A DNA stretch of 64,000 nt from Aliarcobacter cibarius (GTDB lineage Bacteria; Campylobacterota; Campylobacteria; Campylobacterales; Arcobacteraceae): contig NZ_CP054051.1 of assembly GCF_013372265.1 (NCBI RefSeq), forward strand, positions 1,822,596 through 1,886,595, in the 5' to 3' direction. The notes beneath the pieces were generated by a model. It was not told the DNA's origin and did no database searches. It was given only the letters and a program-made list of their open reading frames with translations. Position numbers and translations under genes: made by a program. This document shows, one piece after another, positions 3,372 through 16,475 of the stretch. Numbering within the stretch: position 1 is the stretch's first letter; each line of letters starts with the position of its first letter.

Positions 3372-6359
3372 TTACTTTCTTAAATACTCTAAAGTAGTAT
3401 TTATAATATCATCATCATCTCTACTTCTAGATTTTATGCTCTCTTTTAAACCTTGTGAATTTACAAAAGTAATATTTGTTTCATAAGAACTTATTTGATT
3501 TATCTCTTTTTGTATTGCTAAAATTTTTATTAAAATTAAATCCAAGAACTGTTTTGTTGGAATATCTAATTTCCCAAATCTATCTTCCATCTCTTCTTCA
3601 ATATTATAAAGTTCTTCTTTATTTATTGCTCGACTCAATCTTCTATAAAGCTCTAATCTAATTCTATCTTCACTAATATAATCCTCACTAATATAGGCAC
3701 TAATAGCTAGTTTTATATCTATATTTTGCTCTTTTGTTTTTGTTTCACCACTTAATGTTGCTAAAGTCTCTTCAAGCATTTTTAAATACAATCCATAACC
3801 AATCTGCTTTATATGTCCACTTTGTTCTGCTCCAATAATATTTCCACCACCTCTTATTTCTAAATCTTGGTGAGCTAGTGCTGTTCCACTTCCTAAATAA
3901 GAGTTTGATTCTAAAGCAACTAATCTTTTTATAGCTTCTGGTGTAATCTTACTTTTGTCTTCAACTACATAATAACAAAATCCCTCTTTATTACTTCGTC
4001 CAACTCTTCCTCTTAACTGGTGTAAATCAGCAATTCCAAATCTATCTGCTCCATCAATTATTATAGAATTTGCATTTGGCAGGTGAATTCCTGATTCTAC
4101 AATTGAAGTTGCAAGTAATATATCAAACTCTTTATTTTCAAAGTTTTCTATTATCTTTTCAGCATCTGCTGGTTTTATTTGAGAGTGAATAACATCTACT
4201 TTTATATTTGGAACAATTTGTAGTAAATCTTTTTTCTTAGCTTCAATAGAAGCAATATTATTATGAACATAGAAGAGTTGTCCACCTCTTCTTTTCTCTC
4301 TTAAAATTATCTCTTTTATTAATGCTTCACTATACTCTTTTACATAAGTTCTTACTCCTAATCTTTCACTTGGAGGTGTAAGAAGAGAACTCATACCTTT
4401 TAGTTTTGATAGTGCAAGATTTAAAGTTCTTGGAATTGGAGTTGCACTCATAGAGAAAATATGTACATCTTCTCTTAGACCTTTTAATTTCTCTTTTTGT
4501 TTTACTCCAAATTTATGCTCTTCATCTATTATTACAAGAGCAAGATTATTTGTTTTTATATCTAAAAGTGAATGTGTTCCAATAACTAATTTTATATCAC
4601 CACTTTCCAAACCTTTTTTTATACTAGTTTTTTCTTTTGGACTAGTTTTTCCATCTAGTTTAAAAACCTCAATCCCAAATTCACTAAATCTTTTACTTAT
4701 TGAGTGATAGTGTTGCGTTGCTAAAAGTGTTGTTGGACATACAAAAATAGCTTGATATCCACTATTTACAACAGCTAAAAGTGCATTCATAGCAACTTCA
4801 GTTTTTCCAAAACCAACATCACCACTTAGAAGTCTATCCATAACTTTTCCACTACTTAAATCTGAAAAAATCTCATTTATACTTCTAGTTTGATCTTTTG
4901 TATAAGCAAATCCTGAACTTTTCTGGAATTTTTTTATTAAATTATCATCAATAAATATTTTTATACCATTTACAAGTTCTCTTGCTGCTGCTAGTTTTAT
5001 AATATCATTTGCAATTTCAAATAATCTATCTTTTACTTTCTCTTTAAGTTTTGCAAAACTTCCTCTACCAAGTTTATCTACTATTGCGTAACTTTCACCA
5101 TCTGCTACATATCTGTCAATAGTATCAATATTTTCAACAGGTATTAAAAGTCTATCTTCACCTTGATAATGAATTACAACAAAATCTCTTTTAGCTCCCA
5201 TTATTGAAACTGGTTCTATTCCTTTGTATATACCAATTCCATGTTTTTCATGAACTACAAAATCATTCAACACTAACTCATCAACAACTAGTTTTACTCT
5301 TTTTTTCTTTCTTTTTTTAACCTCTTTATTTAAAGAGATAATTACTTCATTTGTTCCTAAAAGATTAATTATCTCATCACTAAAATGATATTTAATTGCT
5401 TTATCATCTAAAGGTATATCAAGAGCTTTTATTCTAGCTTCACTAGTTGTTATTAAAGTAATCTTTTTTTCTTTATGAAAACTAATAAACTCTTTTACAT
5501 TTGAAGGACTTATCTCTTTATACTCTTTACTTGAATATATTTGAGGAATTGTTAAAAACTTATCTTTATTTAATCTTTTTTCTTCAAAAATATATGCTTC
5601 ATCAAGTTCTCCTAGTGCTTCTTGAGTAATAAATGAATTCATATTTTGAGGTAAATAGTGAGCAAGATTATCTAAATACCAGAAACCTAAAGAGTGTATG
5701 TCTTTTACAAATGCATCACTTGAAGATAGCTCTATTTTTTCACTTAATTCTTCAAAACTATCTTCACTTAAAGCTAAAAAAGCAGGAATTATTGTAAAAC
5801 TATCAAGCTCTTCTTTTTGAGATTTTTGATCTTCAATATCAAATTTTCTAATACTTTCAACTTCATCATCAAACAAGCTTACACGATATCCAAAATCACT
5901 TCCTAAAGGAGCAATATCAAAAATATCTCCTCTTATAGAAACTTCTCCAGCACTTGTTACAATATCTACAAAGTAATAACCCCAGCTATAAAGTTTTTGT
6001 TTAAAAGAGTTTAAATCAAGCTTATCAGCAAAATTTATTGTAAAACTATCAAAACAATCTTTTTTAGGAAGAGGAAAAGATACTGTTCTAATAGGAGAAA
6101 TAAGAATTTTATCCTCTTTTTTATAACCATAAAAATCTTGTAGAGATTTCGTAATATCTTGTATTTCATCACTAAAAGACAATAAATCATCTTTAAAATT
6201 TGCTCTAAAATCTGCTAATACAAATGGTTTAAAACCTAAAAAAGAGACAATATGAGAAGCAACTTGAGCTTGGGCATCATCATTTACTATCAAAAGTTCA
6301 CACTTTTTTAAACTCTTTTCATCTTTTAACTTTTTTAAAAATTCATATATATTTTTCAC
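3372..6359 (-). CDS. mfd: Transcription-repair coupling factor Mfd
   Basis: 995 residues, somewhat shorter than the roughly 1150 of E. coli Mfd. In order it shows an N-terminal UvrB-homology region, a CarD-like RNA-polymerase-interacting domain near residue 370 (VVHEKHGIGIYKG), and a superfamily 2 translocase with Walker A GDVGFGKTEVAMNA near 515, box II DEEHKFG near 613, SATPIPRTL and the C-terminal motif QLRGRVGRS. A C-terminal TRCF domain follows. Mfd removes RNA polymerase stalled at template-strand lesions and recruits UvrA. It starts 2 bases after the small gene upstream, so the two are almost certainly co-transcribed. Confidence 0.97.
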   Translation of the reverse strand: MKNIYEFLKKLKDEKSLKKCELLIVNDDAQAQVASHIVSFLGFKPFVLADFRANFKDDLLSFSDEIQDITKSLQDFYGYKKEDKILISPIRTVSFPLPKKDCFDSFTINFADKLDLNSFKQKLYSWGYYFVDIVTSAGEVSIRGDIFDIAPLGSDFGYRVSLFDDEVESIRKFDIEDQKSQKEELDSFTIIPAFLALSEDSFEELSEKIELSSSDAFVKDIHSLGFWYLDNLAHYLPQNMNSFITQEALGELDEAYIFEEKRLNKDKFLTIPQIYSSKEYKEISPSNVKEFISFHKEKKITLITTSEARIKALDIPLDDKAIKYHFSDEIINLLGTNEVIISLNKEVKKRKKKRVKLVVDELVLNDFVVHEKHGIGIYKGIEPVSIMGAKRDFVVIHYQGEDRLLIPVENIDTIDRYVADGESYAIVDKLGRGSFAKLKEKVKDRLFEIANDIIKLAAARELVNGIKIFIDDNLIKKFQKSSGFAYTKDQTRSINEIFSDLSSGKVMDRLLSGDVGFGKTEVAMNALLAVVNSGYQAIFVCPTTLLATQHYHSISKRFSEFGIEVFKLDGKTSPKEKTSIKKGLESGDIKLVIGTHSLLDIKTNNLALVIIDEEHKFGVKQKEKLKGLREDVHIFSMSATPIPRTLNLALSKLKGMSSLLTPPSERLGVRTYVKEYSEALIKEIILREKRRGGQLFYVHNNIASIEAKKKDLLQIVPNIKVDVIHSQIKPADAEKIIENFENKEFDILLATSIVESGIHLPNANSIIIDGADRFGIADLHQLRGRVGRSNKEGFCYYVVEDKSKITPEAIKRLVALESNSYLGSGTALAHQDLEIRGGGNIIGAEQSGHIKQIGYGLYLKMLEETLATLSGETKTKEQNIDIKLAISAYISEDYISEDRIRLELYRRLSRAINKEELYNIEEEMEDRFGKLDIPTKQFLDLILIKILAIQKEINQISSYETNITFVNSQGLKESIKSRSRDDDDIINTTLEYLRK

Positions 6360-10211: not shown

Positions 10212-12329
10212 TTATTTATAATGCATATTTTTATAACCTTCTAATCTTTTTTTATATGTAGAATTTAACATAGGATTTTTATAGTCAAGAAAATCAATAG
10301 CCAAACACTCTTGATTTCCTCTTCCTATTCTTCCTAAATATTGAATCAATCTTCCATAAAAAGATATTGGTGTTGCAAAAATAATAGTATTTAGATGAGG
10401 GAAATCTATACCTTCACCAAAAAAAGAGCTAGTTGCAAGTATAAGAGAACTAGATTTAACTTTTTCCATATTTTCAACTTGCTCTTTTTTATTTTGACTT
10501 CCATGAACAGAGACAAATGAAATACTTTCCTTCTTGAGCAGACTTTCTAATATATTTAAATGTTCAATCCTATCACTTAAAAGTAAGATTTTTCTATCAC
10601 TATTTTGTTTTATTGTTTCAATAATTTGTTTATTTCTATCTTCATTTACTACAAGTTCATTTATTATTGCTGAATAGTTATCATTACTACTTGTAAACTC
10701 TGTTTTTATAACTTTTAATTTATTGGTATGTGTCTTTGGTTTTTTATACTCATAAGATATAGAACCTAATTGTTGATAAAGAATAGCTTCTAGCTCATCT
10801 TTTCTATTTGGAGTTGCACTAAGCCCTAAAATATATCTTCCCTTAAAGTTTTTTACTATTTGCTCAAAAGTTAGTGCTGGTATATGATGGCATTCATCTA
10901 CAATAACTTGAGAATAATTCTTTATTAACTCAGGAGTATTATTTAAACTTTGCATTGTTGCAACATCAATATTTCCATTTAATAAATTCTTACCTTTACC
11001 TAAAAAACCTATATCATTCTTTTTATATCCAAAATAGTCAACAAATCTACTTATCCACTGATCAAGAAGCATATTTTTATTTACAATAATTAAAGTTTTT
11101 ACAGCTCTTATTTCAAATATTTTTGCACCAATTAAAGTTTTTCCAAAGCCTGGAGGTGCAACACAAATTGAACTATCAAATTTTAAAATCTCTTTTATAG
11201 CATCTTCTTGCTCTGGTCTTAGAGTAAATTGAACTTTTTTTATTTCAATTTGTTCATAAATTCTATTGTCTTTTATGCTAAAATCTAAAAGATTTTCTTT
11301 AAAGTATGCAAATAAATTCTCTTTTAAACCTCTAGGAAGAGTTAAATAATTTGAATCTTCTTCATAACCTTTTAAATATTTAGGAATATTGTAAAGTGAT
11401 TTTCTAAGTGCCAATAAAAGTTTTATTTGAGGATTTTCAAAAGTTGCAAATGATTTTAATTTACTTATAAAACTTTTTGAAAAATTTGAAGTAGTAAATC
11501 TTATTCCATTATCTAAAACTAGTTCAAAACTATTTAGAGGAAAATCTATGTTTTTTAAATCTTTTTGAACATTTTGTGGAGTTATAATTTTTGCAAAATT
11601 ATATATTTGTTCTTTACTTGCTTTTTTAAGATTTGCTAAATAATTCCATTGATCTGCATAAATTTTTTTTGTATTTACATCTAAAAAAACTGTTCTATTT
11701 TTATTTCTATGTTGAAGTTGCAAAGGAAGTTCTATATAACTTCCTAATTTTTCTCTTGTCGCGAATTCGCTACTTGGATATAGCTTTGCACTTATATTTG
11801 CTTTTTTTTGTAAAAAATATAAAAAACTGTATGAAATTTTAGAACTTATTTTTTCTTCAAAGAATATCCAAGCTAAAACTGAATTATAAGAACTTAAAGA
11901 GTAAGAAGCTGGAATATTTAGCTCAAGTAAACTTTTTTGTAGTTTAAAAACATCTTCACTATTTAACTCGAGCACAACATAATTACACTCTTGATTTTTA
12001 TTTATCAAATAAGATGCTAAAAAAATATTTCCTCTTAAATGCTCTTCTATCTCTTTGTTTGTAAGTGGTAAAAAGTCTTCACCCATAAAAGTAGAAGTTA
12101 CAGGACTAAATCCTTCTTTTGCTCCATCTTTACTTTTCCATTTTTTTGCATAAATGTCTGCTCTTGAAATAAAAAGTTTTCTAAAAAGTTCTATCTTTTC
12201 AAATTTTGAAAACTCTTTTTTTTCTTCTTTACTTTGATTTCTTAAAAAGCTTTCTAACTCTTTTATTCTCTCTTGAATCTCTTGTTTTTGTAAATATAAT
12301 TCTTGTAATTGCTGTTCAAGAGTTTTCAT
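10212..12329 (-). CDS. TOTE-type primase/helicase protein with degenerate primase domain
   Basis: 705 residues. Residues 1-38 are a coiled coil. Residues about 44-235 align with the archaeo-eukaryotic primase (AEP) domain of TOTE conflict proteins, as I recall that consensus: KIELFRKLFISRADIYAKKW, LPLT, AWIFF, IELPLQ, VFLD and DQW. The residues that should bind metal and substrate are changed: the D-x-D position reads E-L-N (121-123), the G-x-H-V-W position reads VLAW (151-154), and the Cys cluster expected between about 76 and 87 is absent. The C-terminal superfamily 2 helicase is intact: Walker A APPGFGKT (391-398), DECH (478-481), SATPN and QYLGRIGRG. Role inferred as DNA or RNA unwinding in repair or defence. 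The start overlaps folC by 14 bases. Confidence 0.75.
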   Translation of the reverse strand: MKTLEQQLQELYLQKQEIQERIKELESFLRNQSKEEKKEFSKFEKIELFRKLFISRADIYAKKWKSKDGAKEGFSPVTSTFMGEDFLPLTNKEIEEHLRGNIFLASYLINKNQECNYVVLELNSEDVFKLQKSLLELNIPASYSLSSYNSVLAWIFFEEKISSKISYSFLYFLQKKANISAKLYPSSEFATREKLGSYIELPLQLQHRNKNRTVFLDVNTKKIYADQWNYLANLKKASKEQIYNFAKIITPQNVQKDLKNIDFPLNSFELVLDNGIRFTTSNFSKSFISKLKSFATFENPQIKLLLALRKSLYNIPKYLKGYEEDSNYLTLPRGLKENLFAYFKENLLDFSIKDNRIYEQIEIKKVQFTLRPEQEDAIKEILKFDSSICVAPPGFGKTLIGAKIFEIRAVKTLIIVNKNMLLDQWISRFVDYFGYKKNDIGFLGKGKNLLNGNIDVATMQSLNNTPELIKNYSQVIVDECHHIPALTFEQIVKNFKGRYILGLSATPNRKDELEAILYQQLGSISYEYKKPKTHTNKLKVIKTEFTSSNDNYSAIINELVVNEDRNKQIIETIKQNSDRKILLLSDRIEHLNILESLLKKESISFVSVHGSQNKKEQVENMEKVKSSSLILATSSFFGEGIDFPHLNTIIFATPISFYGRLIQYLGRIGRGNQECLAIDFLDYKNPMLNSTYKKRLEGYKNMHYK

Positions 12330-13476
12330 AGCCTACAATTTCCAAAATCTTTTCAACAACTAAAAAAGAACCAAAAGCAAGATATTCTTCATCTTTTTTA
12401 ATTTCAAAATTTTGTTTTAAGTCTATTTCTAAATCTTTTATAACTTCAATTAATTTTGATTTTTCAACAACTCTTTTATCCTCTAAATCTATTATATATA
12501 TAGATTTGATTATTGGTTTTAAAATTGTAAGAACTTCTTTATAATCTTTGTCTGCATATGAATTATAAATTAGATTTATTTTTTTATTTTCAAACTCTTT
12601 TAATAAAACTTTAGCAGCTAAAGGATTGTGCCCAACATCAATAAAAAGATTATTATTAATTTTCTGACATCTTCCAAAAAGTGGTGTCGAATTAAAAATT
12701 TCAAGATTAATTGGTAGATTTAACTCTTCAAGTGCTTTTAAAACTAAACTTAAGTTCCTTTTTAAATAAGAAGCAAATGTAAAATTATAATCTATGTTAA
12801 AATTTTCAACTTTTAAAATCTCTATATCTTTATTAAATTCTGTTTTTAACTCTTTTTTTACTTTTAATGCTGTTTGATAAACTTCATTAAACTCTTGATA
12901 ACCTATAATCATTTTTTTATCAACTGAACGCATTTTTGTTCTAGCAATTTTTTCTATTGTGTCACCCAAAAAAGATATATGGTCTAGTCCAATGGTTGTA
13001 ATTAAACTTAAATCATTTTTTACAACATTTGTTGCATCAAACTCTCCACCAAGACCAGCTTCAATAACTAAATAGTCACAATCTTTGCTTATAAAAAAAG
13101 ACAAAAGTGTTGTATATTCAAAATATGTTAATTTTTCTAAAAGTTCTTCATCATAAATATTTTGTAAAAATTTATGAGCTTTTTGTAGTGTTTCATCATC
13201 TACATCAAAACCATTTAACCAAATTCGTTCATTAAATTTTTTTATATGAGGAGAACTATAATGTAAAACTTTATAATCATTTTTAAATAGATAATGAGCT
13301 AAAAATCGCCCAGTACTTCCTTTACCATTTGTTCCGACAATATGAATAATAAAAGGAAGCTTTACATGATTATATAAAATATCAGATGCTTTTTTTATGT
13401 AGCTATAATCTATTTTATCGTAGTAAAGAGTTTTATGTTTTAAAAACTCTTCTAAAGTTATATTTTTTAAATTCAT
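12316..13476 (-). CDS. folC: Folylpolyglutamate synthase / dihydrofolate synthase
   Basis: 386 residues of the Mur-ligase type. The P-loop IVGTNGKGSTGRFLAHYL lies near residue 50. Further family motifs are VIEAGLGGEFDATNV and TTIGLDHISFLGDT. The C-terminal domain contains FIDVGHNPLAA. The enzyme adds glutamate to dihydropteroate and to folates, making dihydrofolate and its polyglutamates. It lies 1 base after the lptE-like gene, and its end overlaps the primase/helicase start. The length is slightly under the roughly 420 of E. coli FolC. Confidence 0.95.
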   Translation of the reverse strand: MNLKNITLEEFLKHKTLYYDKIDYSYIKKASDILYNHVKLPFIIHIVGTNGKGSTGRFLAHYLFKNDYKVLHYSSPHIKKFNERIWLNGFDVDDETLQKAHKFLQNIYDEELLEKLTYFEYTTLLSFFISKDCDYLVIEAGLGGEFDATNVVKNDLSLITTIGLDHISFLGDTIEKIARTKMRSVDKKMIIGYQEFNEVYQTALKVKKELKTEFNKDIEILKVENFNIDYNFTFASYLKRNLSLVLKALEELNLPINLEIFNSTPLFGRCQKINNNLFIDVGHNPLAAKVLLKEFENKKINLIYNSYADKDYKEVLTILKPIIKSIYIIDLEDKRVVEKSKLIEVIKDLEIDLKQNFEIKKDEEYLAFGSFLVVEKILEIVGYENS

Positions 13477-13477
13477 T

Positions 13478-14002
13478 TTATTTAAAAGAAGCTACTGCCA
13501 TTTTTGATAATATTTCAGTTACAGCTCTATCACTTGCTTTTGTAATTGCTTCAAATCTATGAGAATCATTTATACTTGAACCTTTATCTACAACAAAGTC
13601 ATTTTCTCCATCAACTGTAAAGCTCTTTACAACATTAGTATCTTTTCTAAAATATTTAACACCAATAACTACAGTTCCTCTATATAATTTATTATAACCA
13701 TCTTTATCATAAGCTAAAGATGAAATTGTTACCCTATTTATTCCTAAATCCATGATAACATCTGCTTCTTTTTCATTATCAACCATGTTAGAGCCTAATT
13801 TTTGAATCAAAATTTTTGTAACTGCATCTTTTACCAAAACAGTGTTTCTAGGGTCTTCTAAACTAACATTTAATCTTACAAAAACACTTCCTCTCATTTC
13901 TTGCTTTGCATAAGTTGCACTTGGTCTATATCCACAAGCTGTAAAAGTAATACCTAAAATTATTGTAAAAACTAAAACTAAAAAACCTCTAGAAACTATC
14001 AT
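13478..14002 (-). CDS. lptE: LptE-like LPS-assembly lipoprotein
   Basis: 174 residues. An N-terminal hydrophobic signal ends in a lipobox (TFTAC, Cys at about residue 22), so it should be an outer-membrane lipoprotein. The sequence after the Cys (GYRPS) is the usual start of LptE/RlpB proteins, and the rest is a small alpha/beta domain. LptE plugs and supports the LptD barrel that inserts lipopolysaccharide. The position between leuS and folC matches the Campylobacter gene order I recall (an lptE candidate next to leuS). Sequence similarity among LptE proteins is low, so the symbol rests on lipobox, size and context. Confidence 0.7.
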   Translation of the reverse strand: MIVSRGFLVLVFTIILGITFTACGYRPSATYAKQEMRGSVFVRLNVSLEDPRNTVLVKDAVTKILIQKLGSNMVDNEKEADVIMDLGINRVTISSLAYDKDGYNKLYRGTVVIGVKYFRKDTNVVKSFTVDGENDFVVDKGSSINDSHRFEAITKASDRAVTEILSKMAVASFK

Positions 14003-14006
14003 TCTT

Positions 14007-16475
14007 TCATCCTTTGATTACAAAATTTACAAGCTTATTTGGAACAACAATCTCTTTTATTATCGTTGCATTTTCAAGCCATTTTTTTGATTTTTCTTTA
14101 GCAACTGCCAGAACTTCTTCATTTGAAGCACCTGGAGTTACTTCTATTTCAGTTCTTTTTTTACCATTTATAGTAATAGCTAAAACTATACTATCTTTAG
14201 TAAATACTTCTTGTTTTACTTCTAAACTATTCTCAAAATTCTTAAGCTCAAATAATCTATTTGCTAATTCCCAACTAGCATGAGGAATAATTGGCTCTAA
14301 AATATTTGTTAAAATATAGTAAGCTTCAGCCCAAATTGCTTCATTTTGCTGAGTAGAAAGAGCATTTAATGCTTCCATACATGAAGCGATTAATGTATTA
14401 AATGCATAAGTTTTATTGAAAACTTCATTTGATTTTACAAGTGCATCATATACTTTTTTTCTAGCTTCTTTTTCTTCTTTACTTAACGAATCATGATTAA
14501 TATTTTTAAAACTATCAATTCCAGCTTTTGTTACATTATTAGCACGCTCAAAAAATCTTTTTATGAATTTGTATGCACCCTCAACAGCACTATCATTCCA
14601 CTCTAACTCTTTTGTAGGAGGAGCTGCAAAAAGGATAAATAGCCTAGCAGTATCCGCACCATATTTATCAACAATCATATCAGGATCTACAACATTTCCT
14701 TTAGACTTACTCATTTTCGCACCATCTTTTAAAACCATACCTTGAGTTAAAAGTCTTTTAAATGGTTCATTTGATTCTGTATATCCTAAATCTCTTAATG
14801 CTTTTGTAAAGAATCTTGCATATAAAAGGTGTAAAATAGCATGTTCTATTCCACCAATATATTGATCAACATCCATCCAATATGAGCTATCAAATGGTGA
14901 AATTCCTTCTTTTTTCCATTTTTTATGATTTGTTGCATATCTTAAGAAATACCACGATGATTGAACGAAAGTATCTAAAGTATCAGTTTCTCTAACTGCT
15001 TCTTTCCCACAATTTGGACAATGACATTTTTTCCAAGTAGGATGCAAGTCTAATGGATTTCCTTCTCCAGTTATTTCAACATCTTCAGGAAGTGCAACAG
15101 GAAGATTTTCTAATTTCTCAGGTACTAATCCACAATCTTCACAATGAACAAAAGGAATAGGAGCACCCCAATATCTTTGTCTTGAAACACCCCAATCTCT
15201 TAGCTTAAAGTTTACTTTTTTTATACCAAAAGAGTTTTGTTCAAAATGATAAATAATAGCTTGTTTAGCATCACTATTTTTAAGTCCTGAGAAGCTTTCA
15301 CTATCAATTAAAACTCCATCTTCTACAAATGCTTCAGTTTGCTTTTCTATAACTCCATTTGCACCAACAATTACTTGTTTTATTGGTAAATTATATTTCT
15401 TTGCAAACTCAAAATCTCTTTGATCATGAGCAGGAACTGCCATAACAGCACCTTCTCCATAAGAGCTCAATACAAAATTTGCAACCCAAACTGGAATTGT
15501 TTGTCCCGTTAATGGATGAACGGCTTCAATTTCAAGGTCAATTCCTTCTTTTTCTTGTGTTCCTCTATCTCTTTCTGGAACCTTTTGCATATTTTTTATA
15601 GCATTAATTTTATTTTTTGGTAAAAGTTCATTTTCTACAATATATTTAACTATTGGATGCTCTGGAGATAATGCTGAATATGTAACACCGTAAATAGTAT
15701 CAGGTCTAGTCGTAAACACAAAATACTTAGTAAATACTCTATCTAATTTTCCTCTTGATTCAACAGATAAATCAAATTTAAATTCTAAACCTTCACTTCT
15801 TCCAATCCAATTTTCTTGCATTGTTAAAACTTGAGATGGCCAAGAGTTTTCCAAAAGTTTTAGATCATCAAGTAATGCTTGTGCATATTTTGTAATTGCA
15901 ATATAGTATCCTGGCATCTCTTTTTGAACGATTTCATTGTCACATCTCCAACAACAACCATCCTCAACTTGCTCATTTGCTAAAACAGTTTGACAATCAT
16001 TACACCAATTTACTGTTGCACTTTTTCTATAAACAATTCCAGCTTCATACATTTTAATAATAAATTCTTGTTCCCATTTTGTATAAAGCTCATCACTTGT
16101 TGCAAACTCTTGAGTTTTACTAAAAGATAATCCTAATGCCTTTAACTCATCTCTCATATAATCAATATTTTCATAAGTCCATTTTTTTGGATGAAGTTTG
16201 TTTTTTATAGCTGCATTTTCAGCTGGCATTCCAAAACTATCCCAACCTATTGGATGAAGAACATTAAAATTATTCTTTCTAAAATGTCTAGCAAAAGCAT
16301 CACCTAAACAATAATTTCTAACATGTCCCATATGAATTCTTCCACTTGGATATGGGAACATACTTAAAATATATTTTTTCTCTTTTTTATAATCTTCGCT
16401 TGGTTCAAAAGAGCCATTCTCTTCCCAAAACTTTTGCCATTTATTTTCAATATTTTTTGAATTATACTCTATCAA
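14007..16475 (-). CDS. leuS: Leucyl-tRNA synthetase
   Basis: 822 residues, class I. The HIGH motif appears as [15 protein letters not shown] near residue 41. The editing (CP1) domain carries [13 protein letters not shown] and the [13 protein letters not shown] block. The tRNA-activating KMSKS loop is [13 protein letters not shown]. Zinc-type Cys pairs sit in [22 protein letters not shown] and CPNCG. It charges tRNA-Leu in the cytoplasm. Its start overlaps the DUF6394 gene by 4 bases (ATGA), and it is followed 4 bases later by the lptE-like gene. Confidence 0.98.

Follow-up and report, generated by a model that had tools for sequence, protein, structure and literature searches.

The window, the 64,000-nucleotide stretch of Aliarcobacter cibarius DNA analysed here (contig NZ_CP054051.1), carries on its minus strand a gene (10212..12329, ATG start) for a 705-aa protein in which a pseudo-primase is joined to a helicase, with Pfam domains AEP-TOTE, ResIII and Helicase_C; all window features located below lie on this strand. 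Residues 1-40 (12210..12329) form a putative coiled coil, a label read from the sequence and a long helix (residues 2-33 in the AlphaFold model), and a similar segment also opens helicase-only relatives that have no AEP domain. This is followed by an AEP-TOTE/Prim-Pol domain that appears catalytically dead (residues 44-244; 11598..12200), recognized by PF22548 (166.4 bits; cut-off 27) and by a structural match to the CAPP Prim-Pol. The profile match bears out an initial annotation that had assigned the N-terminal half to the AEP family. A DRD-like domain (residues 266-365; 11235..11534), placed by a structural match to XPB chain 6p4f_C from residue 266 and presumably of the XPB N-terminal damage-recognition type, leads into RecA-like domain 1 (residues 366-545; 10695..11234), which holds APPGFGKT, DECH and SAT, and RecA-like domain 2 (residues 546-705; 10215..10694), which holds QYLGRIGRG; the boundaries of both are approximate and drawn from Pfam, alignment and structure. 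In the Pfam scan of the ORF, ResIII reached 88 bits and Helicase_C 60 bits. These helicase strings and the AEP blocks KIELFRKLF, AWIFF, IELPLQ, VFLD and DQW had been quoted in the initial annotation and were all found in the ORF. The gene is single-copy in its own genome, where five other weak matches all fall within the helicase part.

The catalytic columns of the AEP domain were examined in an alignment of 80 distinct rows including the window protein, after 15 pairs of identical proteins had been merged. Motif counts left out L097 (stop in frame), L002 (a different helicase), L027 (the same gene as L001) and L009 (a fragment of a broken intact copy). The core, to which the window protein belongs, has 60 distinct rows from Arcobacteraceae chromosomes; the intact set comprises 19 relatives found on plasmids, in chromosomes or islands, and in distant phyla. 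Against the intact relatives, E121 and N123 of motif I (residues 121-123, E-L-N instead of D-x-D; 11961..11969) align with the two catalytic Asp, and L152 of motif II (residues 152-154, L-A-W instead of H-x-W; 11868..11876) aligns with the catalytic His. W154 is retained, as in 60/60 core rows, and motif III (residues 214-217, VFLD; 11679..11690) keeps its Asp in the multiple alignment. The first catalytic Asp is lost in all 60 core rows (51 Glu, 4 Lys, 2 Ser, 2 Gln and 1 Cys) and the second in 59, its column holding N, L, A, I, S, T, P, E, V or, in one row, D; no core row has both (0/60). The catalytic His is gone from 57 of the 60 (survivors L076, L081 and L084), and the D217 column of motif III holds Asp in 55 and Glu in one. 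Asp, Asp and His are all present in 19/19 intact relatives. Intact rows show little or no variation in the blocks SxSGxGxH and SYDRxFPNQD (one has R for the first G of the SxSGxGxHxW block), and the core has lost or altered them. Eight helicase motif residues, by comparison, are conserved in every readable core row (58-60 of 60). Catalytic Asp or His at shifted positions were also considered and rejected, as none is conserved across core rows.

Both the E-L-N and L-A-W readings of the initial annotation and its proposal of an inactivated AEP half on an intact helicase hold against the intact relatives, and the survey of homologues that it had suggested finds the losses common to the core. A pairwise alignment to the solved CAPP Prim-Pol likewise sets L152 on the His of that enzyme; it is weak (E about 2e-6) and misaligns motif I, so that the claim of Asp loss rests on the multiple alignment. 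Prim-Pol motifs are defined in PMC10345425 as hhhDhD/E (I), sxH (II) and hD/E (III). By profile, fold and motif III (D217) the protein falls within the Prim-Pol/AEP superfamily, but E121-L122-N123 departs from motif I and L152 from motif II, and because of these two departures it is not classed as a primase. The view that the 705-aa protein is an inactivated derivative of an AEP-TOTE/helicase fusion is well supported by the sequence comparison. A primase kept active through another metal site, built from E121, the retained D217 and a nearby Asp, could draw on the 51 Glu of the first position and the 55 Asp of motif III; it is made highly improbable by the variety of residues at the second position, by the lost or altered SxSGxGxH and SYDRxFPNQD blocks and by the absence of the whole domain from one clade.

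The cysteine zinc ribbon, whose loss the initial annotation had also counted towards inactivation, is indeed absent, but the argument built on it fails. Ten catalytically intact Campylobacterota rows, L073 and the distant intact rows L056 and L102 have no ribbon either, and six distant intact rows have one. Because intact Campylobacterota copies are without it, its absence says nothing on inactivation and was rejected as a sign of it; the absence is a lineage trait.

Structure prediction, another step that the initial annotation had proposed, returned a CAPP Prim-Pol fold followed by an XPB fold. AlphaFold models of the window protein and of intact L067 (mean pLDDT 86.8 and 85.4; structure prediction drew on 55 and 24 of the rows) both show a long N-terminal helix and then Prim-Pol, DRD-like and RecA-like parts, the relative arrangement of which is unreliable at a pTM of 0.58. 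The L067 model matched the same two structural families as the window model; the match lists cover mainly the helicase and may leave other families unlisted. Residues 43-253 match CAPP chain 7nqd_B (Z 23.7, rmsd 2.5, 194 aligned; also 7nqe, 7nqf and 7p9j). CAPP is an active primase-polymerase, whereas its motif I Asp positions are E and N here; CAPP loses its activity when both of these Asp are changed to Ala (D177A/D179A; PMC8211822). Residues 266-697 resemble XPB/XPBII (6p4f, 5tnu and 2fwr), and the alignment to 6p4f_C (Z 28.6, rmsd 4.1, 376 aligned) shows a DRD and two RecA-like domains in XPB order. Unlike XPB, with which identity is 22%, the fusion protein has an extra coiled coil and a pseudo-primase, and it scores 63.2 bits against a cut-off of 610 for the NCBIfam XPB equivalog and 64.5 against 720 for the RadD equivalog. 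T4 UvsW (2oca) ranked sixth in Foldseek. PF05626/DUF790, which we take to be Bax1, the archaeal nuclease partner of XPB, had no match in the A. cibarius genome (0/1), with the control positive in 4/14. As the scores lie far below both equivalog cut-offs, an XPB/UvsW-like substrate is a guess from the modelled fold.

Across the family, a long AEP half is present in 75 of 104 Arcobacteraceae genomes. In four genomes of one genus (G031, G124, G125 and G126) the protein has shrunk to about 650 aa. The helicase part alone occurs in 13 (G036, G069-G075, G077, G078 and G096-G098), and no copy in 12 (G025, G033, G063-G068, G076, G095, G099 and G122), several of which are incomplete, with G122 having a weak match to another helicase. 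The counted genomes include G077, G085, G096, G101 and G119, in which the frame is cut, split or interrupted. The 12 genomes without a copy imply that the gene is not strictly essential to Arcobacteraceae. Among 397 genomes across the phylum, the long high-scoring matches outside the family number seven, all of the intact type (L067-L073). Of 11 helicase-only proteins, ten start with an N-terminal helix-like segment fused directly to the segment that follows the AEP domain; L114, the remaining one, is truncated by the start of its contig and has the same joint. Removal of the AEP domain in one clade thus leaves a coiled coil and a helicase. Separately, G014 holds an extra, divergent AEP-TOTE match in an 893-aa frame (L096:131-2779, 49.5 bits) that lies outside the family studied.

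In the tree of the helicase part, the core rows group as a single clade (100/99), with the intact Campylobacterota copies as sister (join 99/96), and the 11 helicase-only rows form one clade (100/99) nested in the core; a quick tree without the helicase-only rows gave the same split between core and intact copies. The helicase tree was thinned by 22 named rows, L097 and L059 and did not include L121-L123, and long branches among its distant outgroups mean that the inner splits alone were used. A LeuRS host tree of 28 genomes, in which 8/25 inner branches are starred, is compatible with the helicase tree and needs several separate losses. G063 retains the neighbouring genes and has no copy of the gene between its bactofilin and antiporter genes. 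These trees indicate that the gene is inherited vertically in Arcobacteraceae and that its closest relatives are mobile and intact. Plasmid AEP-TOTE/SF2 fusions, named 'DEAD/DEAH box helicase family protein', share the two domains, the N-terminal helix and the helicase motifs, but they keep D-x-D, SxSGxGxHxW and SYDRxFPNQD and sit off the leuS-folC locus, whereas core copies are chromosomal and syntenic and have lost these blocks. A phage origin was rejected, as the AEP half had no match among 50,697 phage records at E 1e-5.

Both halves of the protein are under purifying selection. In close core pairs (n=10), dN/dS was 0.017-0.148 for the AEP half and 0.012-0.116 for the helicase, and intact pairs (n=4) gave 0.065-0.075 for the AEP half; one pair of the shrunken genus reached 0.31 for this half, at high dS. 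At a helicase identity of 0.60-0.70, AEP identity was 0.44 in the core (n=199 pairs) and 0.66 in intact copies (n=9 pairs). The low dN/dS together with the lower matched identity implies that the dead domain is constrained yet freer than the live one. In the core AEP (1485 pairs) the N-terminal subdomain is better kept than the RRM (0.66 vs 0.55), and in the intact AEP (45 pairs) the two do not differ (0.85 vs 0.85). All these pairs share ancestry and are non-independent, the intact set is small, and the pairwise domain rates, those at matched helicase identity included, left out partial and genus g2 rows. DNA binding by human PrimPol is described as residing mainly in its N-terminal region, and CAPP as having analogous motifs (PMC10345425). 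The better-kept N-terminal subdomain of the core would favour a retained DNA-binding role. The suggestion in the initial annotation that an AEP remnant guides the helicase is accordingly plausible, in view of the purifying selection and the preservation of this subdomain, and is weakened by the clade without the domain.

The same data bear on whether the gene no longer has any function and is simply what remains of a decaying mobile element. Such a relic would match the faster evolution of the AEP half, the shrinkage, removal and outright losses, and the few interrupted frames (G085, G096 and G119). We regard it as very unlikely, given that the frame is open in most genomes, the helicase motifs are complete and dN/dS is far under 1 for either half.

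Contrary to the initial annotation, which had it standing alone, the gene closes a conserved same-strand run of leuS (14007..16475), lptE (13478..14002) and folC (12316..13476), the last of which overlaps the helicase start by 14 bases. Upstream sequence reaches 2.4 kb or more in 35 core loci, and every one of them has leuS and folC upstream in the same orientation as the helicase; in several core loci M23 peptidase and bactofilin genes stand between folC and the helicase. This shared housekeeping run and the host-compatible history support well the earlier proposal of recruitment to a cellular setting. The tested neighbours were found at none of 21 intact rows (11 of them with just 0.9-1.4 kb upstream) and at none of L124-L127, four intact loci of greater length. 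In 49/60 distinct loci the helicase gene begins 4-38 bases before the upstream ORF ends, whichever gene precedes it, and in the remaining 11/60 there is no such overlap; the overlap suggests translational coupling. Shrunken and helicase-only types were at the same place in 4/16 examined loci (L108, L120, L122 and L123), several others being on short contigs. In the two genus g7 loci read for this, the helicase-only gene directly follows der (EngA) on the same strand (L112:4491-7495 and L116:4336-7341; der identified by Pfam in L112 only), and der is a ribosome-assembly GTPase gene.

The company of leuS and the position behind der in these two loci raise the prospect of an RNA role, in which the helicase would serve ribosome assembly or RNA quality and be expressed together with translation genes. 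This role seems improbable to us, since the best structural matches are the DNA translocases XPB, UvsW and RadD, with RIG-I lower, and in the intact relatives the helicase is fused with a Prim-Pol of DNA type. At a distance of about 3.9 kb, downstream from the fusion gene, lies mfd (3372-6359), which encodes the transcription-repair coupling factor; mfd is also downstream in L037, L038 and L040 and in the helicase-only loci L114 and L121. Its position may be a weak hint of a link to repair.

Five neighbours were identified by Pfam (acyltransferase, rhodanese, FolC, LptE and DUF445), and ten further or repeated ones were scanned with NCBIfam (Mfd, BamA/TamA-like below the cut-off, MotA, MotB, SecF, SecD, LeuS, FolC and two unmatched). 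The TOTE conflict system is named for TPR, OB, TBP and Effector (PMC12458937). Among the scanned neighbours, the TPR, OB and TBP genes of this system were absent, and there were no Cas genes. Intact AEP-helicases at four Arcobacteraceae loci, L098 (the same place as L124), L099, L125 and L126, adjoin AbiEi-like and AbiEii genes, the AbiEii call being made by Pfam in L125 and by 88-97% identity in the other AbiE-linked loci. The AbiE-linked intact-type helicase copy of G006 (L126) is interrupted, and in G362 an intact AEP-helicase lies directly behind an AAA_14 ATPase gene (L127:6325-7515).

The AbiE neighbours of the intact relatives, together with the match of the fusion protein to PADLOC PrimPol and other defence helicase models, would fit a protein that is still anti-phage or anti-plasmid, a dead-primase helicase that acts on invading DNA as chromosomal, constitutive immunity. 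Defence genes generally turn over fast. The core gene has a fixed locus, one copy in most of Arcobacteraceae and a host-like history, and none of 10 nearby proteins matched a defence model at E 1e-10, bar a weak helicase match of Mfd. On this balance, continued service in defence is unlikely.

We give a probability of roughly 0.6 to the reading that the gene, now domesticated, encodes a housekeeping helicase that remodels DNA and has a pseudo-primase as its DNA-binding module, similar in principle to Twinkle. Catalytic loss and domestication are its well-supported parts; a role in DNA repair or at forks is what we infer from fold and conservation. A mobile, catalytically complete AEP-helicase gene would have entered the leuS-lptE-folC run of an Arcobacteraceae ancestor and then been retained as a chromosomal helicase with its primase switched off. 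As a DNA translocase of XPB/UvsW type, the protein would act on branched or damaged DNA. Oligomerization or docking to a partner would fall to the coiled coil, and the pseudo-Prim-Pol would serve to capture single strands or strand junctions without primer synthesis. Distorted DNA would be recognized by the DRD-like domain and remodelled at the expense of ATP by the two RecA-like domains. The lower conservation of the dead AEP domain, the AEP-free clade, the 12/104 genomes without the gene and the der neighbour count against this DNA-remodelling reading. So do the scores far below the XPB and RadD equivalog cut-offs, the missing Bax1 match and the 11/60 loci whose start does not overlap.

In Twinkle, an inactive N-terminal primase domain stabilizes the helicase hexamer and has been proposed as a means of DNA capture (PMC9723800). 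The likeness of the fusion protein to mitochondrial Twinkle is that of a helicase whose N-terminal primase has lost its active site. However, Twinkle combines SF4 with a TOPRIM primase and the present protein combines SF2 with AEP, so the parallel is convergent. AEP + SF2 fusions of other kinds are mentioned in PMC5862659. In the open-access literature, no paper on an Arcobacter AEP helicase was found among the matches listed, none was found for TOTE with archaeo-eukaryotic primase or for TOTE with primase and conflict systems, and TOTE with Aravind and helicase returned PMC12458937 alone.

A second group of proteins in the phylum also resembles AEP-TOTE. DUF1882 proteins of about 180 aa are encoded behind glyA (L157:3656-4195, L158:3769-4311 and L159:3551-4090; glyA identified by Pfam in L157 and by eye in L158 and L159). 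Two of the three were scanned against AEP-TOTE and scored 29.6 and 27.7 bits against a cut-off of 27. In 10/10 aligned sequences, motif I reads D-x-N and the motif II His is kept. A protein search found a DUF1882 match in 119 of 150 Campylobacterota genomes; among 20 listed of the 31 without one, eight were Arcobacteraceae and 12 lay outside the family. The DUF1882 Pfam model matched 0/104 Arcobacteraceae genomes, with 7/7 control genomes outside the family positive, and no paper on DUF1882 was found in the open-access literature. Judged by sequence, DUF1882 may be a minimal AEP relative. It is conceivable, if quite doubtful, that a pseudo-primase function was built twice in Campylobacterota from AEP-TOTE stock, as DUF1882 in most families and as the dead AEP half in Arcobacteraceae, one clade of which would no longer need it. 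Two observations speak against such a history: at least 12 of the genomes sampled outside Arcobacteraceae have no DUF1882, and the helicase-only clade has neither DUF1882 nor the AEP half. If true, it would amount to a bacterial version of Twinkle in which live, dead, shrunken and removed forms exist alongside one another.

For Arcobacteraceae, the domesticated helicase would represent a domain named after a conflict system that has settled in a housekeeping gene run, and a possible bacterial parallel to vertebrate Twinkle. The family and its relatives would offer a natural deletion series, from the intact mobile primase-helicase through a dead but selected and a shrunken domain to its removal with coiled coil and motor kept. 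This series would make the role of a non-priming primase domain for its helicase directly testable with evolved proteins.
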